Source of the DNA: Wenjunlia tyrosinilytica | GTDB taxonomy: Bacteria; Actinomycetota; Actinomycetes; Streptomycetales; Streptomycetaceae | Direction: 5' to 3' | NCBI RefSeq assembly: GCF_014646055.1 | Contig: NZ_BMMS01000006.1 | Coordinates: 180,883 to 244,882 of the forward strand | DNA: 64,000 nucleotides | Shown: positions 2,928-60,871 of the stretch, one piece after another | Numbering within the stretch: the stretch's first letter is position 1 | Layout of the letters: every line of letters starts with the position of its first letter | Program-made: the position numbers and the translations under genes | The notes under the pieces: generated by a model | What the model was told of the DNA's origin: nothing | Database searches by the model: none | What the model saw: only the letters and a program-made list of their open reading frames with translations

Positions 2928-3716
2928 ATGCCGCCGCGTTCCCGCTCCTACGACCCCGACAGGACCCGCAAGGCCGTCCTCGCCCAGGCCCACGCCCTAC
3001 GACAGGCGGCCAGGGGCCTGGACCCCGAGCGCTTCGCCGACCCGACCCGGCTCGGGGACTGGACGGTGGGCGAGCTGATCGTCCACATCGCCCTCCAGAC
3101 CGAGGCGCTGCCGCGCGTCCTCGGGGAGGAGCCCGCGGCGGGGCCGGCCGATCTGTCCCCGGTGCGCTGGGCGCGGTCCACCGCCTCGCTCGCGGACCGC
3201 CTGGATGCCCAGACCCGCTCGGTCGCCGGGGAGACCCCGGACCCGGTGGCACGGCTGGACGCCGCCGTGGAGGAGCTGGACGGGGCCCTGGCGGGCCCCC
3301 TGCCCGACCGGCTGGTCCACATCTGGCCGGGGACGCTGCCCGTGGCCGACTTCGCCGTCACCCGGCTCGTGGAGCTGGTCGTGCACGCGGACGACCTGGC
3401 GGCGGCCACGGGCGTGGAGGTGGCGCTGGACCGGCAGGCGCTGGCGGCGGTGACCCGGCTGCTGGCCGACGCGTTCGCGGACAAGGCGCCCGGCGGAGCG
3501 GTGGAGCTGAGGGTGCCGCCGTTCGCCGTCGTGCAGTGCGTGGCCGGCCCCCGGCACACCCGCGGCACCCCGCCGAACGTCGTGGAGACCGACCCGCTGA
3601 CCTGGCTCCGGCTCGCCTCGGGCCGCCTGTCCTGGGCCCGGGCCGCGGATGAGGCGCACATCACAGCCAGCGGCGAGCGCTCGGACCTCTCGGAGCTCCT
3701 CCCGGTCCTGGGGTAG
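2928..3716 (+). CDS. Maleylpyruvate isomerase / mycothiol-dependent (DinB-like) family protein
   Basis: A 262-residue protein of the actinobacterial mycothiol-dependent maleylpyruvate isomerase family, often annotated as a sterol-carrier family protein. The N-terminal half has the DinB-like four-helix signature, with LGDWTVGELIVHIA near residues 40-55 and a second metal-ligand type histidine in LVELVVHADDLAAA. The C-terminal region (about 175-260) is an SCP2-like alpha/beta module with DPLTWLRLASGRLSW. These enzymes use mycothiol as a thiol cofactor for isomerisation or detoxification, and the actual substrate here is unknown. The ATG at 2928 (MPPRSRSYDP) is preferred to the GTG at 2898. Genes of this family commonly sit between purL and purF in Streptomyces. 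Confidence 0.85.
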   Translation: MPPRSRSYDPDRTRKAVLAQAHALRQAARGLDPERFADPTRLGDWTVGELIVHIALQTEALPRVLGEEPAAGPADLSPVRWARSTASLADRLDAQTRSVAGETPDPVARLDAAVEELDGALAGPLPDRLVHIWPGTLPVADFAVTRLVELVVHADDLAAATGVEVALDRQALAAVTRLLADAFADKAPGGAVELRVPPFAVVQCVAGPRHTRGTPPNVVETDPLTWLRLASGRLSWARAADEAHITASGERSDLSELLPVLG

Positions 3717-3948
3717 CCCCGGCTTCGGGCCCGCGCCGGTCCGCTTCGGGCCTCCTCGCCGCCAACTCCCCGCCCTCTCGCGGCCCCTCGGGTGTGATCT
3801 GCGCTTCAATCGCGGCGGGCGGGACGCGAGATCGTTTCCGTGCTCACCAGCACTGCCACCGGTCGTCGCCCCGCCCGGACGGGCCCGGACGACCCCTGGG
3901 GCCCTTCCTCGTTCGGCCGACGTGCCGACCTGCCCTAGACTCGGTGAC

Positions 3949-5508
3949 GTGCCACGTGGTGACGGACGACTCAACCACGATCTCCTCCCCGGCGAGAAGG
4001 GCCCCCAGGACGCTTGCGGCGTCTTCGGTGTCTGGGCTCCGGGCGAAGAGGTCGCCAAACTCACCTACTTCGGGCTGTACGCACTGCAGCACCGTGGACA
4101 GGAGTCCGCGGGAATCGCGGTGAGCAACGGCTCCCAGATCCTCGTCTTCAAGGACATGGGCCTGGTCTCCCAGGTCTTCGACGAGACCTCCCTCAGCTCG
4201 CTCAGCGGACATCTGGCCATCGGCCACGCCCGCTACTCGACGACCGGTGCCTCGGTCTGGGAGAACGCCCAGCCGACCTTCCGCGCGACGGCGAACGGCT
4301 CGATCGCCCTCGGTCACAACGGCAACCTGGTCAACACCGCCGAGCTCGCCGAGCTCGTGGCCGAGCTGCCCACCTCGGGCGGACGCGCGGCCCAGGTGGC
4401 GGCGACCAACGACACCGACCTGGTGACCGCCCTGCTGGCGGGCCAGACCGACGAGGACGGCAAGCCGCTCCCCATCGAGGACGCCGCGCTGCGCGTCCTG
4501 CCCAAGGTCAAGGGCGCCTTCTCCCTCGTCTTCATGGACGAGCACACCCTCTACGCCGCCCGCGACCCGCAGGGCATCCGCCCACTGGTCCTCGGCCGCA
4601 CCGAGCGCGGCTGGGTGGTGGCCTCCGAGACGGCGGCGCTGGACATCGTCGGAGCCTCCTTCGTCCGCGAGATAGAGCCGGGCGAACTCGTGGCGATCGA
4701 CGAGGACGGCCTGCGGGCCTCCCGGTTCGCCGACGCCAAGCCCAAGGGCTGCGTCTTCGAGTACGTCTACCTCGCCCGCCCCGACACCGACATCGCGGGC
4801 CGCAATGTCTACCTCTCGCGCGTCGAGATGGGCCGCAGGCTGGCCAAGGAGTCCCCTGCCGAGGCCGATCTGGTCATACCGACGCCGGAGTCCGGGACGC
4901 CCGCCGCGGTCGGATACGCCGAGGCCAGTGGGATCCCCTACGGCTCCGGTCTGGTCAAGAACAGCTATGTGGGCCGTACCTTCATCCAGCCCAGCCAGAC
5001 CATCCGGCAGCTCGGCATCAGGCTCAAGCTCAACCCGCTGAAGGAAGTCATCCGGGGCAAGCGCCTCGTCGTCGTCGACGACTCGATCGTGCGCGGCAAC
5101 ACCCAGCGCGCTCTGGTGCGGATGCTCCGCGAGGCCGGCGCCGCCGAGGTGCACATCCGGATCTCCTCCCCGCCGATCAAGTGGCCGTGCTTCTTCGGCA
5201 TAGATTTCGCCACTCGCGCGGAGCTGATCGCCAACGGCCTCAGCGTCGAGGAGATCGGCAAGTCGCTCGGCGCGGACTCCCTCGCCTACATCTCGATCGA
5301 CTCGATGGTCGCGGCGACCACGATCGCCAAGCCGAACCTGTGCCGTGCCTGCTTCGACGGGGAGTACCCCATCGACCTGCCGGACCCCGAACTGCTCGGC
5401 AAGCACCTGCTCGAGTCCGAGGCCGCCGCCCCCGCCCGAACCGACGTGGACGGCGTCGCCGGCCTGCTCGGCGGCCCCGGGGCGTCGGACGCGCTGCGCC
5501 GCCCGTAG
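3949..5508 (+). CDS. purF: Amidophosphoribosyltransferase
   Basis: PurF catalyses the committed step of purine synthesis, PRPP plus glutamine to phosphoribosylamine. The 519-residue protein starts at the GTG at 3949 (MPRGDGRLNHDLL). Cys23 in DACGVFGV is the class II glutaminase nucleophile, implying that a 22-residue propeptide is removed. The N-terminal Ntn domain contains YALQHRGQES. The C-terminal phosphoribosyltransferase domain carries the PRPP loop VVVDDSIVRGNT near residue 374. Cysteines in GCVFEYVY, WPCFFGID and NLCRACF match the 4Fe-4S ligands of the Bacillus-type enzyme, so it is probably oxygen-sensitive. purM follows 37 bp later and is likely cotranscribed. The 232 bp upstream hold the promoter. 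Confidence 0.97.
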   Translation: MPRGDGRLNHDLLPGEKGPQDACGVFGVWAPGEEVAKLTYFGLYALQHRGQESAGIAVSNGSQILVFKDMGLVSQVFDETSLSSLSGHLAIGHARYSTTGASVWENAQPTFRATANGSIALGHNGNLVNTAELAELVAELPTSGGRAAQVAATNDTDLVTALLAGQTDEDGKPLPIEDAALRVLPKVKGAFSLVFMDEHTLYAARDPQGIRPLVLGRTERGWVVASETAALDIVGASFVREIEPGELVAIDEDGLRASRFADAKPKGCVFEYVYLARPDTDIAGRNVYLSRVEMGRRLAKESPAEADLVIPTPESGTPAAVGYAEASGIPYGSGLVKNSYVGRTFIQPSQTIRQLGIRLKLNPLKEVIRGKRLVVVDDSIVRGNTQRALVRMLREAGAAEVHIRISSPPIKWPCFFGIDFATRAELIANGLSVEEIGKSLGADSLAYISIDSMVAATTIAKPNLCRACFDGEYPIDLPDPELLGKHLLESEAAAPARTDVDGVAGLLGGPGASDALRRP

Positions 5509-5545
5509 CCGACCCCCGCACAACGACACCCGAAAGAGCACTCTC

Positions 5546-6658
5546 GTGTCCGAGACTCCTGGTTCGAATCCCGGCTCGACTCCCGGTTCGACCTCTGGCT
5601 CCAGCTACGCCGCCGCAGGCGTCGACATCGAGGCGGGCGACCGCGCCGTCGAGCTCATGAAGCAGTGGGTGGGCAAGGCGACCCGTCCCGAGGTCGTGGG
5701 CGGCCTCGGCGGCTTCGCCGGGCTCTTCGACGCCTCCGCCCTGCGGTCCTACGAGCGGCCCCTGCTGGCCACCTCCACGGACGGTGTGGGCACCAAGGTC
5801 GCCATCGCCCAGCGGATGGACAAGCACGACACCATCGGCCGGGACCTCGTGGGCATGGTCGTGGACGACCTGGCGGTGTGCGGCGCCGAGCCGCTGTTCA
5901 TGACCGACTACATCGCGACCGGCAAGGTCCACCCCGAGCGGATCGCGTCCATCGTCAAGGGCATCGCCGAGGGCTGTGTGCTGGCCGGATGCGCCCTGGT
6001 CGGCGGTGAGACGGCCGAGCACCCGGGCCTGCTGGATCCGGACGAGTACGACGTCGCCGGCGCCGGTACGGGCGTCGTGGAGGCCGACCGGGTCCTCGGC
6101 GCGGACCGTATCCGATCAGGTGACGCGGTGATCGCGATGGCCGCCTCGGGACTTCACTCGAACGGGTACTCGCTGGTCCGCCATGTCTTCTTCGACCGGG
6201 CCGGCTGGAGCCTGGACCGCGAGGTCCCGGAGTTCGGCCGCACCCTCGGCGAGGAACTCCTGGAGCCGACCAGGATCTACTCGCTGGACTGCCTCGCGCT
6301 CGCCCGCACCACCGAGGTCCACGCGTTCTCGCACATCACCGGCGGGGGCCTGGCGGCCAACCTGGCCCGGGTCGTTCCCGACCACCTCAGCGCCCGCCTC
6401 GACCGCGGCACCTGGACCCCCTCCCCGGTGTTCACCATGGTCGGGGAGCTCGGCGGCGTGGAGCGGCTGGAGCTGGAGAGGACCGTGAACATGGGCGTCG
6501 GCATGGTGGCCGTGGTCCCCCAGGAGTCGGTGGACGTGACCCTGTCCGTGCTGGCCGACCGCGACGTCGAGGCATGGGTGCTCGGCGACGTCGTCGACCG
6601 CTCCGACACCGCACCCGAGGCCGCGGCGCTCAGCGGCGACCACCCGGCCGGGGCATAA
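5546..6658 (+). CDS. purM: Phosphoribosylformylglycinamidine cyclo-ligase (AIR synthetase)
   Basis: PurM closes the imidazole ring, converting FGAM to AIR with ATP. The 370-residue protein starts at the GTG at 5546, preceded by an AAAGAG-type binding site. A Gly/Ser/Thr/Pro-rich N-terminal run of about 20 residues precedes the conserved YAAAGVDIEAGDRAVELMK, a typical Streptomyces extension. The AIRS family hallmarks are TDGVGTKVAIAQ, DLVGMVVDDLAVCGAEPLF, GGETAEHPG and HITGGGLAANLARV. It lies 37 bp downstream of purF in the same direction, forming a purFM unit that ends at the hairpin at 6707-6738. Confidence 0.97.
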   Translation: MSETPGSNPGSTPGSTSGSSYAAAGVDIEAGDRAVELMKQWVGKATRPEVVGGLGGFAGLFDASALRSYERPLLATSTDGVGTKVAIAQRMDKHDTIGRDLVGMVVDDLAVCGAEPLFMTDYIATGKVHPERIASIVKGIAEGCVLAGCALVGGETAEHPGLLDPDEYDVAGAGTGVVEADRVLGADRIRSGDAVIAMAASGLHSNGYSLVRHVFFDRAGWSLDREVPEFGRTLGEELLEPTRIYSLDCLALARTTEVHAFSHITGGGLAANLARVVPDHLSARLDRGTWTPSPVFTMVGELGGVERLELERTVNMGVGMVAVVPQESVDVTLSVLADRDVEAWVLGDVVDRSDTAPEAAALSGDHPAGA

Positions 6659-6706
6659 CCCGGTCAGGACCGGGTCGGGCCGCGCCCGGTACGGAGGCAC
6701 GACGAA

Positions 6707-6738
6707 ACCCGGTCCTGGGCAAATGCCCCGGACCGGGT
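6707..6738. terminator. Bidirectional terminator between purM and DUF3073 gene
   Basis: Inverted repeat with arms ACCCGGTCC-GGGC and GCCC-GGACCGGGT around a short AAAT loop, between convergent genes. Confidence 0.75.
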
Positions 6739-6762
6739 CCGTGAGAGACAATCCCTCGCGAC

Positions 6763-7017
6763 TCAGGCGCGACGACGGTTGGAGCCGGACTCGCCGTCCC
6801 CGTAGTCGTCGTCATCATCGTCGTCGTAGTACGCGGCGTACGCCGCGTACGGGTCGTCGTCCAGCTCGTCATCGTCATGCACCGGCTCGTTGTTCACCGG
6901 CTGCGATGTCGATGCGCCCAGCTCTTCGGCCAGGCGGGAAAGGTCCGTCCCACCGCTGTTGTACTTCAGCTGGCGGGCGACCTTCGTCTGCTTGGCCTTG
7001 GCCCGGCCGCGCCCCAT
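6763..7017 (-). CDS. DUF3073 family protein
   Basis: An 84-residue cytoplasmic protein with a basic N-terminus (GRGRAKAKQTKVARQLKY) and a strongly acidic tail containing DDDDDDDYGDGE. This split charge is the hallmark of DUF3073, an actinobacterial family of unknown function that regularly sits downstream of and convergent with purM in Streptomyces. The acidic run is encoded by GAC/GAT repeats and could vary in length. No catalytic or membrane motif is visible. Nucleic-acid or ribosome binding by the basic part is a guess only. Confidence 0.9.
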   Translation of the reverse strand: MGRGRAKAKQTKVARQLKYNSGGTDLSRLAEELGASTSQPVNNEPVHDDDELDDDPYAAYAAYYDDDDDDDYGDGESGSNRRRA

Positions 7018-42462: not shown

Positions 42463-44043
42463 TCAGAACTGGTCGGTGGCCCAGCGGTGTTGGGCGGTGT
42501 CGTAGCCGTACGCCGTCATGCCCTTGATGCCGCTCGTACGGAAAGGCTGTCCGTGGTCGTCGATCCGGACTGATCCGGAGCGGCCGTTGCTGCTCCATTC
42601 GAGCTCCAGGTACCAGCCGCAGTCGCAGTCGGCCGAGCGGCCGGTCACCAGGAAGGCCTCCGGGTCGATGGCCGAGACGGTGTACGGGAACGAGACCGCG
42701 GGGATCTCGTGCTCACCGTCGGAGCCGGCCTCGGAGTGGGCAACCGGGCGCGGCCTGTCGAGGTCGACGTCGAAGAGCCTCGGGGTGAGGGCCCCGCCGC
42801 AGCCGTTGCTCATGAAGTAGGCGTTCCGCGCAGTGGGGGTGCGCCGGTCGGTGACGCGCACTCGCAGCGCCTCCAGCACCACGGCCCGGCCGGACTTGCC
42901 CTGGAGGGTGATCCGGACCTGGGTGTCCCGCCCGTGCAGGGCTCCGGTGGCCCGTACCCACTGCTCGGCGTCCTGCTCCGGGGGCGGCGGCGGGACGTCG
43001 GCGGGGCCGCGGTTGACGAGGTAGACGTGGTCGCAGCCGTTCTGCCAGATCTGATCGTTGACGGTCCAGGTGAACGGGACGCCGCTCGCGTTCTCGGGTC
43101 CGGCGGGGCGGGAGGGCTTGGGTGCGTCGGAACGGTGGGAGGGCGACCCTTTGGGGGCGCCGGACTTGGACGCCTCGACGGAGGGAGCGGCGGAGGGGGA
43201 GCCGGAGGGGGAGGAGCCGGGCGGTTGACCAACAGGCGCCCGTGACGCAAGCCCCGGCTTGGTACCGGAGGCGCCGGACCGCTCGCCCGCACCCCGGTGG
43301 GAAACCTCCCCCAACCCCAGCGCGGTGGACGCCACCGCCCCGGCAACGACGGCCGCGACAAGCGCTCCCCACCGCAGACGCCGCGCCCGCGGGGAGGGGC
43401 TGCCGTTGATGGCGGAGCCGGAAGCCGAGTCGGAACGGGACGAAGGGTCCGCACCCGGACCGGAATCCACCGCGGCACGTGCGTCCGCGTCAGGGCAGGC
43501 GCCCGCCCCCGAGTTCGAGCTCGTGCCCGTACCTGTATCCGTACCCGTACCTGTATCCGTGCCCGTACCTGTGCCCGTGCCCGTACCTGTGCCCGTGCCC
43601 GTACCTGTGCCCGTGCCCGTACCTGTGCCCGTGCCCGTGCCGGGATCCGGGTCCGCGTCCCCATGTGGTCCGCGAAGCGGACCCAGGACCGTGTCCTGCC
43701 CCTGGCCCGCGTCCCGCCCCTGGCGCGCGTCCGTATCCGGCGGCGAGTCCGAACCCGAGACGACGCCCGTCGCGTCCTTGCGCTTCTTCCTTGCCGCGTC
43801 CGCCAGGATCCACAGCCGGTGCAGCGCGATCAGGTCCTCGCCCTCGCTGCCGCACAGCCTTGCCAGGCGCTCCACCGGGGCGAATTCCACGGGGACCGCC
43901 TCGCCCGAGCAGTATCTGTGCAGCGTGGACGGGCTCACGTTCAGCCGTCCGGCCAAGGCCCCGTAGCTTTTCCGGGACCGGTCCTTGAGCTTGCGCAACC
44001 GCTCGGCGAACTCATCGACTTCGGCTTCCTTCGGCGCGCCCAT
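42463..44043 (-). CDS. Membrane-spanning HTH protein with Gly-Thr repeat linker
   Basis: A 526-residue protein. An Xre-type helix-turn-helix is at about 10-75 (FAERLRKLKDRSRKSYGALAGRLNVSPSTLHRYCSG). A low-complexity cytoplasmic linker includes about 40 residues of alternating Gly-Thr, then one membrane helix (about 225-245, WGALVAAVVAGAVASTALGL). A Ser/Pro spacer and an extracytoplasmic domain follow (about 320-526, FTWTVNDQIWQNGCDHVYLV through ECDCGWYLEL-like cysteines). This is the topology of RodZ-like or one-component membrane regulators. The HTH could bind DNA or a partner protein. GGGAG precedes the ATG at 44043. The divergent secreted protein at 44226 may be a target. Confidence 0.8.
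   Translation of the reverse strand: MGAPKEAEVDEFAERLRKLKDRSRKSYGALAGRLNVSPSTLHRYCSGEAVPVEFAPVERLARLCGSEGEDLIALHRLWILADAARKKRKDATGVVSGSDSPPDTDARQGRDAGQGQDTVLGPLRGPHGDADPDPGTGTGTGTGTGTGTGTGTGTGTGTGTGTDTGTGTDTGTGTSSNSGAGACPDADARAAVDSGPGADPSSRSDSASGSAINGSPSPRARRLRWGALVAAVVAGAVASTALGLGEVSHRGAGERSGASGTKPGLASRAPVGQPPGSSPSGSPSAAPSVEASKSGAPKGSPSHRSDAPKPSRPAGPENASGVPFTWTVNDQIWQNGCDHVYLVNRGPADVPPPPPEQDAEQWVRATGALHGRDTQVRITLQGKSGRAVVLEALRVRVTDRRTPTARNAYFMSNGCGGALTPRLFDVDLDRPRPVAHSEAGSDGEHEIPAVSFPYTVSAIDPEAFLVTGRSADCDCGWYLELEWSSNGRSGSVRIDDHGQPFRTSGIKGMTAYGYDTAQHRWATDQF
43523..43641. repeat. In-frame 12/18-bp minisatellite encoding Gly-Thr
   Basis: About 120 bp of tandem units built from GTGCCC, GTACCT and GTATCC hexamers (18-bp period in the second half). 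It encodes the alternating Gly-Thr linker of the HTH protein. Any unit change keeps the frame, so length should vary among strains. Confidence 0.85.
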
Positions 44044-44225
44044 TGGCTCCCGTTCCCCCAACCGTTCCAGGACGGCGTTCCACCCCACCCACATTCCCCC
44101 ACGTCAAGGGGGTTGGAATGGTTCCACCTTCCCGGAATGCCCCGCGGCCATTGCTGTTCCCGACCGCTTCCGCAGAAGCTGATGAGCGTTCAGCCGCAAC
44201 CGACAACCCGGGGGAACACCCGTCC

Positions 44226-45448: not shown

Positions 45449-48400
45449 GTGTCCGCTCCGGCGGGCGGCGGCAGGCGGGCCGTCGCCGTGCTCATCGGGG
45501 TCAGCGGCTACGCACGCGCGGCGAACGAGTTCTCGAGGATCCCGGCGGTCGAGCAGAACATCAAGAAGCTGGAGAAGGTCCTCAAGGACCCCGGGTCCGG
45601 TGTCTGCTCGTCCGGCAAGGTCAAGACCGTCCACAACCCCGAGCACGCCGGCGTCGTCTGGGAGCGGATCGACGCGGCGGCCGCCCGGGCCGAGGACGTG
45701 CTGCTGTGCTACTACTCCGGCCACGCCCGCGTGGACGACCGGTACGACAAGCTCTACCTGAGCCTGAGCGACTGCACCCCGGACAACCTGTTCGTCAACG
45801 GCCTCGCGGTCGAGGACCTGCTCAAGCGGCTCGAGGAGATCCGCCACCAGTGCGCCCCGCTGCACATCGTCCTCGTCCTGGACTGCTGCTACTCCGGCCA
45901 GGCCGTTCTGGAGGCCGGGACCGAGGCCGCCCGCGCCCACTACTGGGTGCTCGCCTCCACATCGGCGACCCGCGAGGTCTCCTGCGAACCCTCGGGCGAG
46001 GACGGGTGCACCCCGTTCACCCGCGAGTTCGCCGCCGTGCTGAGTGACGGCGTCCCCCATGCGCCCCGGGTGACCATGGGCGCGCTGTGCGGGCGCCTCG
46101 AAGACACGATGCGACAGCAGCGGACCGAGGTGTTCGACCCCTGGCTCATCCACTACAAGGCCGGGCCCGAGGTGGTCGTCTCCCATGCCCGGGACGTCCC
46201 CGGAGACGGCGTGAGCGCTTCCGAGAGCCCGCAGCCCGCTCTCCTCGCCTCCCTCGGCAGCCGCCTCCAGGCACTGTGGCGGCTCCCGGGCGTCCAGGCG
46301 CTGCCTGCCGGAATCCTCGGCGCCGCCACCGCGGCCAAACAGCAGCTTCTCGACGGGACCGTTCCGCTGTGGCGGCGCTGCGTCGCCTGGCTGGCGGTGG
46401 TGGCGGCTCTCGGCGGCCTCGCGGCAGGTGTCCAGTACGGCTTCGCCGGGTCCGATACGTCCTGCCCTCCCCCACTGGAGCTGCGGGTCCTCACCTCGCC
46501 CGAGATCCGCGGCGCCGTCAGGACCGCTGCCACGGCCTACGAGGAGTCCGATGCCAACCAGCGGGCCCTACGCCGGGGGGACGGGCACGCCTCGGCCCCC
46601 GACGGCTGCCGAGCCGTCCATCTGACGGTCTTCGACGCCCCCTCCGACAAGGTCGGCGACGCCTTCGCCCGCGCCGACACCTGGAGCGGATCGCGGGTGT
46701 CCGAGGACGGGACCGACTCCGGCGATCCGGTCGGCGCCCCGCCCGAGGACGGTGCCGGAGTCGACCCGGCCGATCCGACCGACGCCTTCGACTCCGTCCA
46801 CCCCTCGAATCCGGACACGACAGGGCAGACGGCGAGCGGGACGACGTCGTTCGGGTCCGCGGGCGCTACGGCGGGTGGGAGTTCGGCCGGTACGGCGGGC
46901 GGGACCTCGGTCGCTACGGCGGGCGGGAGTTCGGCCGGTACCGGGACCTCGGCCGCTACGCCCGGCGGGAGCGCCGACTCGGCCAAGCACTTCATCCCCC
47001 TCAACGACGTTGGACCGCAGCCCGACATCTGGATTCCCGACACCTCCGCCGAGGTGGCGCTGGCCCGGGAGGCGACGAGTGGATCCCCCGTCGTCCGGCT
47101 GGGCACCGGTACCCCCGTGGCCTACTCGCCCCTCGTCCTGGGTCTGCCCTCACGAACCGCCGTTCAACTGCCCGGCGTATCCGTGGAGATCACCTGGAAC
47201 GACCTCCTCAAGGCGGTGAGCGGCCTGCCGGACCCGCCGCGCCTGCTGCGTCCGAGCCCGACCACATCGGGAGCGGGCCTCCTGCACACCGTGGGCCGCT
47301 ATCTGGCCGGGGACGGGAGCCTGCCGGACACCGGGGCCGACACGAGCGGTGGCCTCGACACGGTCCTGGCGCCCGACGTGGTCGCCGCCATCGAGCAGAA
47401 GCTGTCCGCCTCCGGCTTCCCCTCCGGCGACAGCACCGAACTCCTCGACCGCGTGGCGCACCGCGCGGCCGCCAGGCCGGGACGCCGAATCGAGAACCTC
47501 GAGGCCCTGGTCTCCGAGAAGGCGCTCGTCGACTTCAACCGGGCCGCGGAGGGGGCGCCCGGAACGGGCGACGGCGGCGACCGCTGTTCCGGCTTCCGGG
47601 CCGCGGAATCGTTGACCGCGTACTACCTCAAGGGCGTTCCCGCGCTCGATCACCCGTTCGTCCCCGTCTCCTGGACGGGCGCCGACGAGGACCGCGTTCA
47701 GCGCTCCGACGCCGTCAACCGCTTCCGGGCGTGGCTGCTCGGCAAGGACGGCCAGTCCCAACTGGCCGCCGCCGATTACCGCAAGGCCAGAACCGGCGGG
47801 GTCCCCCCGCTCGCCGACCACGATTCGGCGCTCGGGTGCTCCCACTCGGGGGCCCAGCCGTCCATACCCATCCATGCGGCCGACCTCACCGCGCGGCGGC
47901 TGCGGGCGGTGATCGGCGCCTATGACAAGGCCCGGGCCCCGAGCCGGGTCCTGATCCTGCTCGATGTCTCGCCGTCCATGCGGGAGGGACGCAAGAAGGC
48001 GGAGGCGGAAGCGGTGGTGGCCAGAGCCCTGGAGGTGCTGGGCCCGGAGGACACTTTCGGAGTCTGGGCCTACCCCAAGTCCGATACGCAGCGCACCGGC
48101 CACCGTGAACTGGTTCCCCTCGGCACCGGGGTCAAGCAGGCGCGGGAGGGTCTGCGTGCTGTGGAGAAGGCCGAGTTGGGCAGGACGACCGGCACCGCGA
48201 TGTACGAGGTGCTGACCAAGGCGCTGGACACCATGCGGCATGCGCCGGGCAAGGAGCGGACCGAGCAGGCGATCCTGCTGGTCACCGACGGCGGTGACGA
48301 CCGGGAGCCCGGCGACAAGGGGCAGGCCACCGCCGCGCACAGGTTCTTCAACCGGTTGAAGGACGACTCCGCGGCCACGGTCCCTTTCGTCGTCGTGGAC

Positions 48401-48550
48401 GTCGGCCGTCCCGGATGCGGCGCCTATGAGCTCGACATCATCAGCGGCTCCTCCCAGTGCCTGCCCGCCAAGGGCGATGTCGCCAAGGAACTCGCCGGGA
48501 AGCTCGCGGTGGTCGACACACCGGATCCCGCGGACGGGAGGACACCGTGA
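45449..48550 (+). CDS. Caspase-like protease fused through a membrane helix to solute-binding-like and vWA domains
   Basis: A 1033-residue multidomain protein. Residues about 10-240 form a caspase-like (C14) protease with catalytic His92 in CYYSGHARVDD and Cys147 in VLDCCYSGQA. A single membrane helix lies at about 311-331. Beyond it, presumably outside the cell, is a periplasmic-binding-like domain split by a Gly/Ser/Thr linker (start LELRVLTSPEIRGAVRTAA; PDIWIPDTSAEVALA; VAYSPLVLGLP). A vWA domain starts near 834 with MIDAS motif DVSPS (839-843) and VTDGGDD. The GTG at 45449 has GGAGGGGGAG upstream. Its stop overlaps the next gene as GTGA. It looks like a transmembrane sensor that turns on a cytoplasmic protease. 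Confidence 0.88.
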   Translation: MSAPAGGGRRAVAVLIGVSGYARAANEFSRIPAVEQNIKKLEKVLKDPGSGVCSSGKVKTVHNPEHAGVVWERIDAAAARAEDVLLCYYSGHARVDDRYDKLYLSLSDCTPDNLFVNGLAVEDLLKRLEEIRHQCAPLHIVLVLDCCYSGQAVLEAGTEAARAHYWVLASTSATREVSCEPSGEDGCTPFTREFAAVLSDGVPHAPRVTMGALCGRLEDTMRQQRTEVFDPWLIHYKAGPEVVVSHARDVPGDGVSASESPQPALLASLGSRLQALWRLPGVQALPAGILGAATAAKQQLLDGTVPLWRRCVAWLAVVAALGGLAAGVQYGFAGSDTSCPPPLELRVLTSPEIRGAVRTAATAYEESDANQRALRRGDGHASAPDGCRAVHLTVFDAPSDKVGDAFARADTWSGSRVSEDGTDSGDPVGAPPEDGAGVDPADPTDAFDSVHPSNPDTTGQTASGTTSFGSAGATAGGSSAGTAGGTSVATAGGSSAGTGTSAATPGGSADSAKHFIPLNDVGPQPDIWIPDTSAEVALAREATSGSPVVRLGTGTPVAYSPLVLGLPSRTAVQLPGVSVEITWNDLLKAVSGLPDPPRLLRPSPTTSGAGLLHTVGRYLAGDGSLPDTGADTSGGLDTVLAPDVVAAIEQKLSASGFPSGDSTELLDRVAHRAAARPGRRIENLEALVSEKALVDFNRAAEGAPGTGDGGDRCSGFRAAESLTAYYLKGVPALDHPFVPVSWTGADEDRVQRSDAVNRFRAWLLGKDGQSQLAAADYRKARTGGVPPLADHDSALGCSHSGAQPSIPIHAADLTARRLRAVIGAYDKARAPSRVLILLDVSPSMREGRKKAEAEAVVARALEVLGPEDTFGVWAYPKSDTQRTGHRELVPLGTGVKQAREGLRAVEKAELGRTTGTAMYEVLTKALDTMRHAPGKERTEQAILLVTDGGDDREPGDKGQATAAHRFFNRLKDDSAATVPFVVVDVGRPGCGAYELDIISGSSQCLPAKGDVAKELAGKLAVVDTPDPADGRTP

Positions 48551-50049
48551 CCCCACCTCGTCGGCGCCCGCCGCACCGCGCACTTCCCCTCCCGCCGCAC
48601 TGCCCACTTCGCCGTCCACCGCACCGCCCACTTCGCCGTCCGCTCCACCGGACCGTCGCCGCGAAGGCCGCGACAGCCGCGGCGGTCCTCACCGCGCTGT
48701 GCGTGCTCGCCGCAGCGGGCTGCGCCGGGCAGGCACCGCGGGCCGACGGCGCCGCCACCGAGCCCATCCTCCTCGCCAGCGGCAGCGACCTCACCAGTTC
48801 GGGGATACGGCAGAGCCTGATCAAGCAGTGGAACGTGGAGCACCCCGACCACCCGGCGCGGATCGTCGTGCTGCCCGACGAGGCCGACCTCCAGCGCAGC
48901 CAGCTCGTCGGCGCCCTCCAGTCGGGCAGCGGTGGCTACGACGTGGTGAACCTCGATGTGACCTGGACGGCGGAGTTCGCCGCCGGAGGGCTGATCCAGC
49001 GGTGGCCGGAGCCCCTTCCGGCCGACTTCATCGCATCGGTGAAGAACACCGTCGTCCACGACGGCAAGGTGTGGGGCGTTCCCTTCAACACCGATGCCGC
49101 GCTGCTCTATTACAACAAGGAGATTCTGGACAAGTACGGCTTCCAGGCACCCCGTACCTGGGGCCAGTTGATGAGCGTCGCCGAGGACATCCAGGACCGG
49201 CACGCCGAGTCCGGCTACACCGCCCAGCTCAAGGAGTACGAGGGTCTGACCGTCAATGTCATGGAGGCCATCTGGGCCAGTGGAGGCGATCTGCCCGCCG
49301 AGGACGGGAACAGCGGCCGGATCCAGGAAGGGCTCAACAACCTCAAGGAGCTCTACCGGCAGGGCATGCCCGACGACTCGCTCACGGTCGACGAGACGGC
49401 GTCCGTCACCGAGTTCAGCGGAGGGAAGGTCGCGTTCATGCGCAACTGGCCCTTCGCCTACAACCAGCTCGCCGACCGCATGCCCGGGTTCGCCGACAAG
49501 GTCGTGGTCACCGGACTGCCCGGACCTTCGGTGCTCGGCGGCCAGAATCTCGCGGTGACCGCCCACGCCGGAAATCCGGCCTGGGCCAGAAGGCTCATCA
49601 GGTACCTGACCGACAGGCAGAGCGAGCGGTGCCTGCTGGAGCGCGGCTTCGCCGCCACCCGTGAATCCGCCTACCTCGGGAACGGCGGGCAGATCTGCAC
49701 CCGGGTCCCGGCGCCCCCGGACAACGGCACCCCGGAGAACGGCACCCCGGAGAACGGCACCCCGGAGGGCGGCAGTGCGGGTGCGGGAAGTACGGGTGCG
49801 GGAAGTGCGGGGACCGGCCCAGCCGGGGAGGGCAGGCCGTCCGCCCAAAGCGCCCTGCCCGCCGACAAGTACCCATTGCTGCTCGCCTCCATCAAACGTG
49901 CCCGGGCGCGTCCCGTGACCCCGTACTACGCCGCGTTCACGCACTCCGTGCAGTCCACGGCGGCAACGATGCTCAGGAACCGGATCACGGGCAACGAGGC
50001 CGCGGACACGCTGATGCACCGGTCCGCCCGCACGCTCCAGGGCCGCTGA
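48547..50049 (+). CDS. Lipoprotein extracellular solute-binding protein without transporter
   Basis: A 500-residue lipoprotein. The N-terminus is Pro/Arg/His-rich, then a hydrophobic segment ends in lipobox LAAAGC near residue 58. The body is a family 1-type (sugar-like) solute-binding protein: GGYDVVNLDVTWTAEFAAGG, GVPFNTDAALLYYNKEILDKYGF, PRTWGQLMSVAEDIQ and GGKVAFMRNWPF. A Gly/Thr/Asn repeat (NGTPENGTPENGTPE) interrupts the C-terminal part. No permease or ATPase gene is nearby. Its start overlaps the caspase-fusion stop, so it is translated with it and likely presents a ligand to that receptor instead of to an ABC transporter. Confidence 0.88.
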   Translation: MTPPRRRPPHRALPLPPHCPLRRPPHRPLRRPLHRTVAAKAATAAAVLTALCVLAAAGCAGQAPRADGAATEPILLASGSDLTSSGIRQSLIKQWNVEHPDHPARIVVLPDEADLQRSQLVGALQSGSGGYDVVNLDVTWTAEFAAGGLIQRWPEPLPADFIASVKNTVVHDGKVWGVPFNTDAALLYYNKEILDKYGFQAPRTWGQLMSVAEDIQDRHAESGYTAQLKEYEGLTVNVMEAIWASGGDLPAEDGNSGRIQEGLNNLKELYRQGMPDDSLTVDETASVTEFSGGKVAFMRNWPFAYNQLADRMPGFADKVVVTGLPGPSVLGGQNLAVTAHAGNPAWARRLIRYLTDRQSERCLLERGFAATRESAYLGNGGQICTRVPAPPDNGTPENGTPENGTPEGGSAGAGSTGAGSAGTGPAGEGRPSAQSALPADKYPLLLASIKRARARPVTPYYAAFTHSVQSTAATMLRNRITGNEAADTLMHRSARTLQGR

Positions 50050-55098: not shown

Positions 55099-57261
55099 AT
55101 GGGTAGCGGTCATGATCAGGGGGCGATCAGGAACGACTTGTCAGGCACTGCGGGAGCCGTCGTGCAAGCAGGCACTGTCCAGGGCGGAGTACATATCTCG
55201 GTCGCGACGGATGAGGGCTGGACCGCCCCCAGGCAGTTGCCTCTGGATGTGACCGGATTTGTCAACAGGCGCCGAGACATTGCAGAGCTCGACTCACTCC
55301 TGTCACACTGCGCTCAGCAATCACCCGTATTCCTTCCTTCGCCGATCGTTATATCAGCGATTGCGGGAGCCGCGGGAGTCGGTAAGACCGCTCTGGCGGT
55401 GCACTGGGCGCACCGAGTACGCGAAGCCTTCCCGGACGGCGACCTTTACGTGAACCTGCGTGGCTACGATCTAGGGCCTCCCCTGACCGCAGCCCAGGCG
55501 CTGGACGGCTTCCTCCACTGTCTCAATGTGCCTGCCGCGCGTATCCCCAGCGAGTTGGGGGCCCGATCCGCCCTCTTCCGGTCCCTGCTCGACGGCAGGC
55601 GTGTGCTGCTCGTCCTGGACAACGCTGCAGCGGCTGACCAGGTGCGGCCGCTCTTACCGGGTTCCCACCGTTGCCTAGTCCTGGTCACCAGCCGTAGCCG
55701 ACTGTCAGGTCTCGTGGCCCGGGAGGGAGCCACCCGCATGGTCCTCCAGTACCTGTCACCCGAGGGATCCCTCCAACTGCTCAGGGAGATTATCGGCCGC
55801 GTGCGAGTGGACGCCGAGTTGGCAGCGGCCGCTCAACTGGCGGAACGCTGCGACCATCTACCGCTCGCCTTGCGCATCGTGGCTGAGCGTGCGATGGGTC
55901 ATCCACACAGCAGCTTGCGGGACCTCGTCGGTGAACTGGCCGACGAGCGCGACCGGCTGGATGCGCTGGCCACGGACGACGACGAGGTGACGGCCGTACG
56001 CACGGTGTTCTCGTGGTCATACCGAGCCCTTCCCGAGGCGGTCGCGCAGACCTTCCGATTGCTGGCGCTGCATCCGGCGCCGGAGTTCAGCACCCGTGCT
56101 GTCGCAGCGCTGTCCGGTATCTCCGCGGTGCAGGCGAGGCGACGCCTGGACAGACTGCATGGTCTTCACCTAATAGAGCAGACAAGTCGGGATCGGTACC
56201 GTTTCCATGATCTACTTCGTTCATATGCACTGGAGCAGGCCATGGCTGAGGAGTCGGACATCCTTCGAGGCGATGCCGTCGACCGGACGTTGAACTGGTA
56301 TCTCCACACCGCGTGTGCCGCCGCACGTGTCATTCTTCCGCAGGGCCGCGCCGTCCCCTTACCTGACCAGACTCCCCAACCTGACCCGGAGACGTTCGCC
56401 GATCTGGACGCTGCTCTGGCCTGGTGCGAACAGGAACGGCTGGTACTTCTCGATGCGGTACGCCAAGCCGATGCGCTGGGAAGATACGAGATCGCTTGGA
56501 AACTGCCGGTCGCGCTGATGGGTTTCTTCGAGCGGCGCTCCTACTGGGACGACTGGATCTCCACACATCGCGTGGGCCTTGCCGCTGCCCGGAACCTGGG
56601 CGACCGGTTCGGAGAGGGGTGGACGGCACTCAGTCTCGGTGATGCCTATTGGGACCTGCGGGACTTCGGCTCCGCTCAAGAAGCCTATGCCCAGGCGTTG
56701 GAGGTGACACGGGACACCGGCGACCGCTGGGGTGAGGCATTCGCGCTACGCGGTATCAGTCTGGTGCACCTGGAACAGGGGAGCTTCGAGCGAGCCATCG
56801 ACTACTCGGAGCGGGCACTCCCCGCCCTCGTCGACCTCGGCGAGCGGCGAGGCCAGGGGATGTGCCTGCTCAGCATCGGGCAAGGGCAGCATGGGCTGGG
56901 ACATCCGGACCAAGCGGTAGCTCAGTATCTGTCGGCATTGGAGATCTTCCGTGAACTGGACAACCGGTGGAGCGAGACGCTGGGCACATTCCGCCTAGCC
57001 TTGGCCCTGCAGGATCTCGGAAGGCACCATGAGGCAATCAGCGCGTTCGAGGATGCTGCTGCATCCTTCGCTGGACTCGGGGATCGCCGCCACGAGGCCC
57101 TTGTACTGGACTGTCTGGGCCAAGCCCACTCGACGGCCAGCGACTATGCGGCAGCCCGGCAGGCATGGCAACGCGCCCTTGCCCTGCTCACCGAACTGGA
57201 CGACCCACAGGCATCAACGGTCCGCTCGCGACTGGGGGACCTACCGCAACCCCCTCTCTGA
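55099..57261 (+). CDS. NLR-like STAND ATPase (NB-ARC plus TPR) with N-terminal amyloid-like motif
   Basis: A 720-residue signal-transduction ATPase. Residues about 11-33 carry a RHIM/BASS-like amyloid signalling motif with core VVQAGTVQGGVHI. The NB-ARC domain (about 50-390) has P-loop GAAGVGKTA (89-97), Walker B VLLVLDNA, VLVTSRSRL and the downstream GLPLAL-type HLPLALRIVAE. A winged helix is near 320-385 (ending RYRFHDLLRSYALEQA). About 5 TPR repeats occupy 505-715. Such proteins oligomerise on ligand binding and recruit an effector by amyloid templating. No matching effector was seen nearby. Two in-frame TTA codons (55654, 56359) imply bldA-dependent translation. Confidence 0.88.
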   Translation: MGSGHDQGAIRNDLSGTAGAVVQAGTVQGGVHISVATDEGWTAPRQLPLDVTGFVNRRRDIAELDSLLSHCAQQSPVFLPSPIVISAIAGAAGVGKTALAVHWAHRVREAFPDGDLYVNLRGYDLGPPLTAAQALDGFLHCLNVPAARIPSELGARSALFRSLLDGRRVLLVLDNAAAADQVRPLLPGSHRCLVLVTSRSRLSGLVAREGATRMVLQYLSPEGSLQLLREIIGRVRVDAELAAAAQLAERCDHLPLALRIVAERAMGHPHSSLRDLVGELADERDRLDALATDDDEVTAVRTVFSWSYRALPEAVAQTFRLLALHPAPEFSTRAVAALSGISAVQARRRLDRLHGLHLIEQTSRDRYRFHDLLRSYALEQAMAEESDILRGDAVDRTLNWYLHTACAAARVILPQGRAVPLPDQTPQPDPETFADLDAALAWCEQERLVLLDAVRQADALGRYEIAWKLPVALMGFFERRSYWDDWISTHRVGLAAARNLGDRFGEGWTALSLGDAYWDLRDFGSAQEAYAQALEVTRDTGDRWGEAFALRGISLVHLEQGSFERAIDYSERALPALVDLGERRGQGMCLLSIGQGQHGLGHPDQAVAQYLSALEIFRELDNRWSETLGTFRLALALQDLGRHHEAISAFEDAAASFAGLGDRRHEALVLDCLGQAHSTASDYAAARQAWQRALALLTELDDPQASTVRSRLGDLPQPPL

Positions 57262-57533: not shown

Positions 57534-60500
57534 TCAGTTGGAGGACGAAGCTTCCCTTCGGAACTCCTGGAAGGCCGCGTTGGGCATCGCATGCTCCAGC
57601 TTCCAGACCACCTTCATCGGCCTACTGCCCTCGTGTGAAATATGGCGAGCTGGCCCTAGTAGCAGCCATGGCTGAGGAAGTCTGCGCTCGGTTTCTTTGT
57701 GCCGGCGAGCAAAGAGGAGGACATGGCTACCCCGCTCGACGTGGTGGATGTAGCGCTGAGCGGTTGCACTTGTGGCACCCACCCCGCTCTGGGTTTCCCA
57801 ATGGAAAATGTTTGGTGCGCTCGCGTAGTCGTTGTACATCGTGCTTTGAGTGAACTTCTTCTGATCCTTTTCGATTGTAATGAGGAAGGCGTCGGTGTTG
57901 ATTTCCTTGCAGTGGGCGACACCTGCATTGAATGAGGCAGGTAGACGTCCGCCCAATTTAGTGTAGTTGAGTGCAGTCCAGATTTCCTCTCGAGTATAGG
58001 AAGCGTGTAGTGCAAGGGAGAGCTCACTGAACGGATCTGGTAGAGGTGCAGGCTTGAAAGGGCTGCGGCTCAGGTCAAGAGCAAGGACTTGGCTAAGCTC
58101 CATGACAACTGCCGGGTTCCTTCGGATGAGATCGAGTCCCTGCTGATATGTGCTCAACCCGGTGGCGTTGGGAAAGAACGAGAAGAAGAGCATTCGAGCG
58201 TAGCCCTGATCCTTTGGGTTCAAGTCCTCATAACGTGGCGCATTTTCCTGGAGTAGACGGGAGTAGGCCACCAGACGTTCAGCATCGTCGACATTTAGGA
58301 AGGCGCGAATTCGGCTGAGTAGCTCTGCCTCACGTTCCCTCGGCGCATCGGTGTGAAGTTTGGCTCGGCGCAGCAGATTTGTCCAACAGCGATCTCGGTT
58401 ATCGTACAAGTCGGCGATGTCACGCTGACTCCGATGCAGATAGCCCGCGATCGTTGTTTCTTGGCTCGCTTTAATGTCGGCAGCCAGTGTTTGGACGTTC
58501 CAATCGACCTGGTCGCGGATATTCTTGAGAACTCTCTCCTGTGAGACTGCATCCAGAATGATCTCGCAACCCGCAGGTAGCTGAGGGAACTCGCGTTCAA
58601 GTGCTGACACTAGTTCTCTGTGCGTATAGCCGGTCAATGCTCTATAGCGGGGCTCGAATCGGAACTTCTGGTGCTGATGCCCTATAAAGTCGAGAACAGT
58701 CAACACTGTCTTGTTGGGTGAACGGCGCAGACCTCGCCCGAGTTGCTGAAGGAAGATGGTGGCGCTAGAAGTAGGACGAAGCATCAAGAGGGTATCGATA
58801 TCAGGAATGTCGATACCCTCGTTGAACAAATCTCGCGTAAAGAGGACCTGAATGTCCCCGGAGTGAAGGCCCGTCAAGGCATCCCTTCGCTCATTATCGG
58901 GAGTTTGACTGGTTACGGCCATGGCCTCCAGCCCGGCACTGCGAAAGTGTTCAGCCATGTATTCAGCGTGTCGCACTGAGGCGCAGAATCCGATAGCCCG
59001 CATCTTCTGTGGTGTGGCGAACCTTCGGTAAATTTCGTCGATGACGTGGCGTGCTTGAACACCATTGGCCAACAGTGCGTCAGTCAGTGCTTCTACTTCA
59101 TACTCTCCACCCGTGATATCTACATTGCGGAGGTCGGTGCCGTCATGGAGGCCGAAGTAGTGGAACGGGCATAGAAGGCGATCTTCCAGCGCTTCCCACA
59201 AACGCATCTCTGCAGCAATTCGTCCTTGAAATAGAACGTCCTGGACGTGCTTCCCATCCATTCGTTCAGGGGTTGCGGTCAAGCCTAGAAATTGTAGCGG
59301 GGTGAAGTGATTCATCACCTTCTTGTAAGTCGGAGAGACGGCATGGTGACACTCATCGATGACGATGATGTCAAACATGTCTTTGTCGAAGTTTTCCACC
59401 TTTCCAGTTAGTGACTGAATCGTTGCGAAGGTAGCATCCCAGACGTCTGGCTTTTGCTTTCCGCTTAGAATCTTCCCAAAATTCGGCTCCCTCAAGACGA
59501 CTTGATAGGTTCGCTGGGCATGCTCCAAAATTTCTTGACGGTGGGCAATGAACAGTAGTTTCAATTGCTTCTGGCCTAGTTGGCGTCGCAAGCCCAAATA
59601 GTCCAGGGCGGCAATTACGGTCTTGCCCGTTCCGGTGGCCGCCACCAGGAGGTTGGTATTATAGACTTCTCGGGCGACGCGCAAGTGTTCGAGCATTTCT
59701 AGCTGGTGAGGGAGCGGGCGGACTCGGATACCTGTGTTGCTAGTCAACTGGCCAAGATTTGCCTCTGTCTCTGGCGGAATATTGCCCTTCCCACCGTGCG
59801 AACCCCAGGCTTGTTGGAGAGCAGCATCGAGGCGTTCGGCGTCGCGGTCAGGATCGTACGCCTCGAACGCGTCGTCTTCCCAATAGGCGTTGAATGTGGC
59901 TTCGAACTTTGTCAAGGCCTTCTTAGTGGCGATAGAGGAGAGTCGGACGTTCCACTCGAGCCCGTCGAGCAGCGCGGCCTTGGAAAGATTGGAGCTACCC
60001 ACATACGCGGTGTCGTAGCCAGTGCGTCGACGGAAGAGCCACGCTTTTGCGTGCAGCCGAGTTGTGGAAACTTCGTAGTTGACCTTTACTTGCGCGCCAA
60101 ATCGTCTTACCAGCCAGTCGAGGGCCTGTCGCTCGGTAGCTCCTATGTAGGTGGTCGTGATAACCCGGATGGGTACGCCCCGCTCGGCAGCCAAGGTGAG
60201 CTGATCATGCAGTACGCTAAGCCCTGTCCACTTCACAAAGGCACACAACAGGTCTACGCCGTCGGCTGTTGTCAATTCGGCCCGAAGCTCTGCGCCGAGG
60301 CTCGTGTCACCTTTCGCGTTGGTGAGCAGCCCGGCCTCAACAAGCGGAGTTGTGGGCCGGACCGGACGTACCTTGTACACACCCTTAGTTCCCGGCTCTG
60401 GTTCAGCTAGAGCAAGCAGTTCGCGCGGACCAGGGATGAGTCGATCCAAGGACTTCGGCGGCTCGTGCAGCAAGGGCCCGTCGATTGTCTCTGTCGCCAT

Positions 60501-60767
60501 CTTCGCTGCAGCGATCGCTTGAAGGATGTTGTTAGCCGCGTTCACTTGCAGCTCAAGGGGCACGCCGGCCAGTGCTTGTTGCGCAGCATTGCGGATGTGT
60601 TCAGCGAGGGCATGAGGAGCTCGCTCCGCCTCGACCATCCCTTGCACCGGCTCCAAGCCGCCCTCCTGAAGCTCCTTAAGGGTGACCGAGAGCTGTTCGG
60701 TGATCAGCTCCTCGTAGAGCCCCGTGGGCAGCTTCTGATCGAGTCGGCGTGGGGAACGATCGGGCAC
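57534..60767 (-). CDS. PLD-nuclease / SF2 helicase / DUF3427 fusion protein
   Basis: A 1077-residue protein. The N-terminal region has a phospholipase D-like nuclease domain (about 160-310) with HxK motif in TTRLHAKAWLF and YVGSSNLSKAAL. A superfamily 2 helicase follows: Walker A VAATGTGKTVIA, DECHH in IVIDECHHAVS, SATPE-like GLTATPERMDG, LFNEGIDIPDID and motif VI LQQLGRGLRRS. The C-terminus is a DUF3427 domain. The GTG at 60767 has GGAGG upstream. GC content is clearly lower than the surroundings, indicating transfer. This architecture is typical of defence-like DNA translocase/nuclease proteins. It is divergent from the NUDIX gene, a likely functional partner. Confidence 0.9.
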   Translation of the reverse strand: MPDRSPRRLDQKLPTGLYEELITEQLSVTLKELQEGGLEPVQGMVEAERAPHALAEHIRNAAQQALAGVPLELQVNAANNILQAIAAAKMATETIDGPLLHEPPKSLDRLIPGPRELLALAEPEPGTKGVYKVRPVRPTTPLVEAGLLTNAKGDTSLGAELRAELTTADGVDLLCAFVKWTGLSVLHDQLTLAAERGVPIRVITTTYIGATERQALDWLVRRFGAQVKVNYEVSTTRLHAKAWLFRRRTGYDTAYVGSSNLSKAALLDGLEWNVRLSSIATKKALTKFEATFNAYWEDDAFEAYDPDRDAERLDAALQQAWGSHGGKGNIPPETEANLGQLTSNTGIRVRPLPHQLEMLEHLRVAREVYNTNLLVAATGTGKTVIAALDYLGLRRQLGQKQLKLLFIAHRQEILEHAQRTYQVVLREPNFGKILSGKQKPDVWDATFATIQSLTGKVENFDKDMFDIIVIDECHHAVSPTYKKVMNHFTPLQFLGLTATPERMDGKHVQDVLFQGRIAAEMRLWEALEDRLLCPFHYFGLHDGTDLRNVDITGGEYEVEALTDALLANGVQARHVIDEIYRRFATPQKMRAIGFCASVRHAEYMAEHFRSAGLEAMAVTSQTPDNERRDALTGLHSGDIQVLFTRDLFNEGIDIPDIDTLLMLRPTSSATIFLQQLGRGLRRSPNKTVLTVLDFIGHQHQKFRFEPRYRALTGYTHRELVSALEREFPQLPAGCEIILDAVSQERVLKNIRDQVDWNVQTLAADIKASQETTIAGYLHRSQRDIADLYDNRDRCWTNLLRRAKLHTDAPREREAELLSRIRAFLNVDDAERLVAYSRLLQENAPRYEDLNPKDQGYARMLFFSFFPNATGLSTYQQGLDLIRRNPAVVMELSQVLALDLSRSPFKPAPLPDPFSELSLALHASYTREEIWTALNYTKLGGRLPASFNAGVAHCKEINTDAFLITIEKDQKKFTQSTMYNDYASAPNIFHWETQSGVGATSATAQRYIHHVERGSHVLLFARRHKETERRLPQPWLLLGPARHISHEGSRPMKVVWKLEHAMPNAAFQEFRREASSSN

Positions 60768-60871
60768 GGCACCTCCGAGTGACTGTGTGTCTTCTCGTTG
60801 TAACAGGTAACGCCGACAGGCGGGGCCTGGTGGAGGAAGGTCGTAGCTGCCCCGGCCCATAGGGTGATGGC

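Follow-up and report, generated by a model that had tools for sequence, protein, structure and literature searches.

A predicted caspase-bearing transmembrane receptor encoded between EACC1 and solute-binding lipoprotein genes in Wenjunlia tyrosinilytica, probably part of an outside-in signalling system

Caspases encoded with effector-associated constant component 1 (EACC1) have been published as a two-gene system (System 4; Kaur et al. 2020, PMC7159879), in which the EACC1 gene precedes that of a caspase whose C-terminus varies. The passages of that paper dealing with the family generally read the C-terminal domains as effectors and propose that EACC1 is transmembrane, with a conserved transmembrane (TM) helix; EACC1-caspases with a TM and an extracellular PBP are already noted there in one sentence. 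Receptor-like metacaspases had been proposed earlier (Asplund-Samuelsson et al. 2012, PMC3501461). The locus described here was found in a stretch of 64,000 nucleotides from W. tyrosinilytica (the window). It keeps the gene order of System 4, and differs from it, as far as those passages of PMC7159879 go, in having a third conserved gene for a solute-binding-protein (SBP) lipoprotein, in carrying SBP and vWA modules together, in a cytoplasmic domain that is exchangeable among relatives and in an EACC1 modelled as a soluble fold. The three genes form an operon (Table 1), in which the gene for the receptor-like caspase-TM-SBP-vWA protein stands between EACC1 and the gene for an orphan SBP lipoprotein of sugar type. 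The two flanking genes had escaped the original prediction.

Table 1. Features of the operon. Coordinates refer to the window and residue numbers to the receptor; membrane sides are predicted.
Feature	Coordinates	Strand	Details
EACC1 gene (effector-associated constant component 1), 134 aa	45040..45444	+	Pfam PF19953
Caspase-TM-SBP-vWA receptor-like protein gene	45449..48550	+	GTG start, 1,033 aa
Cytoplasmic caspase domain, residues 13-223	45485..46117	+	NF047832; dyad H92 (45722), C147 (45887)
Single transmembrane helix, residues 310-328	46376..46432	+	WRR at its N-terminal side
Extracellular solute-binding-protein module, residues 339-~800	46463..47850	+	Pfam SBP_bac_11; AlphaFold2/Foldseek; conserved Cys
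Extracellular vWA domain, residues 834-~1020	47948..48508	+	Pfam VWA_2; invariant MIDAS; 1shu match
SBP lipoprotein gene (SBP_bac_1)	48547..50049	+	Pfam PF01547 101 bits; lipobox LAAAGC

The N-terminal domain of the receptor matched the NCBIfam subfamily caspase_w_EACC1 (147.3 bits, cut-off 140) and kept the dyad, with H92 lying within YYSGH and D145-C146-C147 within LDCCYSG. The GH and LDCC motifs were invariant across an alignment of 18 homologues. The subfamily match and the Cys/His dyad expected of EACC1-caspases were both present, in agreement with the original prediction of a caspase domain on the N-terminal side of the membrane segment. This caspase was not detected in the own genome with the PF00656 profile, whereas NF047832 did detect it. 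PADLOC matched the receptor to none of its described anti-phage systems and returned a generic partial caspase match (32.5 bits), and in a plasmid search the similarity was confined to the caspase domain. Chance occurrence of the domain architecture was ruled out, since it recurs in many genomes.

Membrane topology was analysed in 48 homologous caspase-type loci, a few of them being the same gene twice, with a Hessa-type hydrophobicity scale written for this analysis, which is not a trained predictor. The receptor presented one TM candidate (dG -0.65; runner-up segment +2.83); the one membrane helix proposed originally for residues 311-331 was retained, with its boundaries moved to 310-328. 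The best segment fell between caspase and SBP in 48/48 loci (median dG -0.6) and no second TM was found in any of them, the runner-up never scoring below +1. In the 15 residues flanking the TM, lysine plus arginine totalled 196 before the helix vs. 34 after it over the 48 loci, and the excess was on the N-terminal side in 44 of them. Position of the TM and charge bias together predict a single-pass, N-in/C-out protein with the caspase inside the cell and the remainder outside, as had been proposed. Cleaved signals and additional helices, named in that proposal as features that would place both halves on the same side, were absent from all the loci scored. The reading as a secreted protease was ruled out, because the receptor N-terminus showed no signal-like hydrophobic stretch and the K/R-rich side of the helix is the one that bears the caspase. 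Cysteines 339, 387, 713, and 990 of the ectodomain were conserved, and 1004 in most homologues, which agrees with an oxidising compartment.

A binding-protein-like fold after the TM, also anticipated, was recovered both by Pfam (SBP_bac_11 at ~521-611, 27.8 bits vs. a cut-off of 25) and by Foldseek on an AlphaFold2 model built from an 18-sequence alignment (pLDDT 67, pTM 0.69), which returned a type-2 PBP fold (7tav, 0.73). For the vWA domain, the same model matched 1shu (TM-score 0.70 on target), and Pfam gave a VWA_2 match at 834-948 (37.2 bits, cut-off 27). The DxSxS of the MIDAS, described originally as intact, was invariant in the 18 homologues (D839-x-S841-x-S843) and D947 nearly so; the position of the MIDAS threonine varied among them. 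A Gly/Ser/Thr-rich insert of ~95 residues (416-511), predicted to be disordered and mostly restricted to the own species, interrupted the SBP module. Of the two roles proposed originally for this half, ligand binding has more support than adhesion, since two solute-binding modules are present and metal binding by the vWA domain is putative.

The order EACC1, receptor, SBP lipoprotein was invariant in 18/18 family loci. A search at the level of the order yielded 30 loci, five of which overlap with the family set; the SBP lipoprotein was present in 30/30 and EACC1 in 27/30, the retrieved stretch of the remaining three stopping before the EACC1 position. Every caspase-type locus examined with the own ectodomain type had the SBP lipoprotein directly 3' of the receptor gene. 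Ectodomain matches of about 239 bits or more, taken as strong, occurred in 56 of 247 genomes of the order. The ectodomain also has stand-alone SBP-vWA paralogues, signal-anchored proteins with most of their length exported; among those checked, neither SBP lipoprotein nor EACC1 was found beside the SBP_bac_11-vWA gene. The own genome encodes one such paralogue without caspase (L083, 5317-7194, on contig C22), and a scan of genome contigs with the single ectodomain protein as query gave no confirmed relative. Elsewhere in the window, a STAND-type signalling protein made up of an NB-ARC ATPase and TPR repeats is encoded ~5 kb from the operon (55099-57261, + strand), and PADLOC marked a candidate Type IV methyl-directed restriction enzyme with PLD, ResIII helicase, and DUF3427 domains (57534-60860, - strand; mREase_IV, 1114.7 bits). 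A long Gly-Thr (or Asp-Thr) repeat, corresponding to a GT/AC-rich tandem tract (43480-43670), lies within an HTH_31 gene (42463-44094, - strand).

The GTG start of the lipoprotein gene overlaps the receptor stop, and the lipobox cysteine was kept in 19/19 SBP lipoproteins; the own lipoprotein has sugar-binding relatives in the PDB. With 14 matches in the own genome, SBP_bac_1 proteins are frequent, so the case for a third gene relies on the invariant adjacency and orientation and not on the profile score. The gene directly 5' of the caspase scored 50.6 bits with PF19953 (cut-off 23.6) and was the sole EACC1 match in the own genome. Its AlphaFold2 model was a compact alpha/beta fold (pLDDT 78, pTM 0.74), with zero PDB matches at E <= 0.001 in a fold search. 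The helix proposed to span the membrane had a median best dG of +2.2 over 50 sequences on the Hessa-type scale, and in the model helix 65-82 was packed within the alpha/beta domain. Weak hydrophobicity and burial of this helix suggest, as a lead only, that EACC1 could be soluble and serve as a partner in the cytoplasm; were it transmembrane, the gating step of the mechanism proposed below would be altered. The EACC1 homologues of L035-L098 share this poorly hydrophobic central helix.

Forms without caspase were found by searching the class with ectodomain profiles and inspecting the N-termini of the hits; they are few (one EAD1, two trypsin-like, and three PNP). In one locus (L161) the ectodomain carried Trypsin_2 (48.2 bits), and the receptor gene stood between a Trypco2 gene (76.1 bits) on its 5' side and the SBP lipoprotein gene on its 3' side. 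A second one (L163), also with the lipoprotein, carried a trypsin-like remnant that looks degenerate, and cytoplasmic catalysis may thus be dispensable in some forms. In L162, likewise with the lipoprotein, the ectodomain was joined to EAD1 (38.7 bits) and the adjacent upstream gene encoded an EAD1-TIR protein (TIR_2 91 bits, EAD1 42.2 bits); the two EAD1 domains were identical at 90/92 positions, which suggests a recent duplication or conversion. The EAD1-TIR gene occupies 3379-4242 of that locus and the EAD1-TM-SBP-vWA gene 4152-6878. PNP_UDP_1 was found on the more distant ectodomain type in L103, L105, and L157 (103, 53, and 74 bits, respectively), without SBP lipoprotein, and L104 combined EACC1 (72.7 bits) and caspase with the distant ectodomain type, again without the lipoprotein. 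In four loci that have the lipoprotein (L094, L170, L172, and L173), nothing but two or three TM helices preceded the ectodomain. A small ORF, conserved and with a single hydrophobic segment at its C-terminal end, was observed just 5' of PNP-type receptors (L157 3545-3814, L105 6383-6835), the L157 copy having no Pfam match. In L159 and L160 a helix-turn-helix and a TM apparently precede the ectodomain, possibly forming a membrane-bound transcription regulator; the match in L159 (24.9 bits) is below the Pfam cut-off and a weak lead, and L160 contains an in-frame TAG.

On an ectodomain tree built by a quick method and containing some long branches, the caspase label required at least three changes, all forced by well-supported branches. 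The partner genes sorted by membrane side, with small numbers outside the caspase form: EACC1, which was not found beside the non-caspase ectodomain forms, Trypco2, and EAD1-TIR track the cytoplasmic domain, and the SBP lipoprotein tracks the ectodomain. This division by membrane side matches an outside-in receptor and not a released C-terminal effector and, together with the topology, it supports the receptor-like arrangement favoured in the original prediction over a secreted protease.

Taken together, these results point to what is probably a three-gene outside-in signalling system, composed of a lipoprotein SBP, an SBP-vWA receptor, and an EACC1-gated caspase with growth arrest or death as output. 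Domain content, single TM, predicted polarity, operon, and exchange of cytoplasmic modules are established at the level of sequence, whereas docking, ligand gating, clustering, and caspase output are inferred from what SBP-coupled receptors are known to do and from the part that caspase, TIR, and EAD proteins play in conflict systems. The lipoprotein, anchored on the outer membrane face, would bind a small solute, judged from homology to resemble a sugar, and would dock onto the SBP-vWA ectodomain, possibly via the vWA MIDAS. Docking would induce a conformational change or clustering of the single-pass receptor, bringing the cytoplasmic caspases together, with EACC1 gating or scaffolding them from the cytoplasmic side. 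The active caspase would then cut itself or cell proteins, most likely leading to growth arrest or cell death within immunity or developmental signalling.

The published reading of the family, in which EACC1 is a membrane sensor and caspase autocleavage releases or deploys the SBP-vWA part as an effector, draws strength from the up to 50 alternative C-terminal domains reported in the family passages of Kaur et al. 2020 (PMC7159879). For this locus we regard it as rather improbable: the C-terminal part is predicted to be outside the cell, the lipoprotein partner accompanies the ectodomain through the swaps of output, and the presence of the same ectodomain on trypsin, EAD1, or PNP, or without any protease, makes a caspase unnecessary for deployment. 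Somewhat less unlikely is a regulator of solute uptake or nutrient status, with the SBP pair sensing sugar and the caspase acting as a metabolic regulatory protease instead of in death. The lipoprotein is indeed nearest to maltose/trehalose SBPs and a paralogue in the same genome adjoins an amylase-like gene; however, the flanking window genes examined, a subset of the ORFs, included no recognisable ABC permease or ABC ATPase gene, and the alternative outputs (TIR, EAD1, trypsin/Trypco2, and PNP) are those of conflict-type signalling. A surface adhesion or cell-wall sensor acting through the MIDAS, with structural SBP folds and a caspase reporting mechanical or envelope damage, seems unlikely as well. 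Although the MIDAS D/S/S residues are invariant and the vWA fold resembles CMG2 and integrin I domains, the MIDAS threonine is not conserved, and the dedicated lipoprotein in every examined caspase-type locus with the own ectodomain type points to a solute.

Extending the outside-in signalling system beyond this locus, multicellular actinobacteria might possess a family of SBP-gated transmembrane "death receptors", a proposal we put forward tentatively and hold at a little under an even chance. Its members would share the SBP-vWA ectodomain (plus the SBP lipoprotein in one large branch) and have interchangeable outputs (caspase/EACC1, trypsin/Trypco2, EAD1/EAD1-TIR, and PNP nucleosidase), constituting the first ligand-gated outside-in entry to conflict systems. 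If so, extracellular signals would enter EACC1/EAD-like death or immunity systems through a named binding-protein pair, and the trigger becomes testable. What is new here is a conserved third gene, an ectodomain uniting SBP and vWA, and the swapping of outputs under one ectodomain; no description of these was found in the literature searched, mostly without subscription papers.

Among known proteins, the cyanobacterial metacaspase-CHASE2 and -ANF_receptor proteins likewise combine a cytoplasmic caspase homologue and an extracellular receptor domain in one protein, but their ectodomain is unrelated and the relevant passages of the source (PMC3501461) describe no EACC1 or SBP partner. Stand-alone actinobacterial SBP_bac_11-vWA proteins have a homologous ectodomain, with one signal anchor and only a short cytoplasmic tail. 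In LuxP-LuxQ and ChvE-VirA, a separate solute-binding protein presents the ligand to a membrane receptor whose output is a histidine kinase; the present family would be an SBP-coupled receptor of the same kind, with a putative SBP-receptor interaction and a protease, TIR, EAD1, or PNP as output. Animal death receptors and Toll-like receptors likewise join an ectodomain and one TM to a cytoplasmic adaptor or protease. Taken as a whole, the present ectodomain is not homologous to theirs and the caspase is fused directly here, the nearest parallel to the receptor-adaptor logic of the animal proteins being the EAD1 form beside its EAD1-TIR gene.
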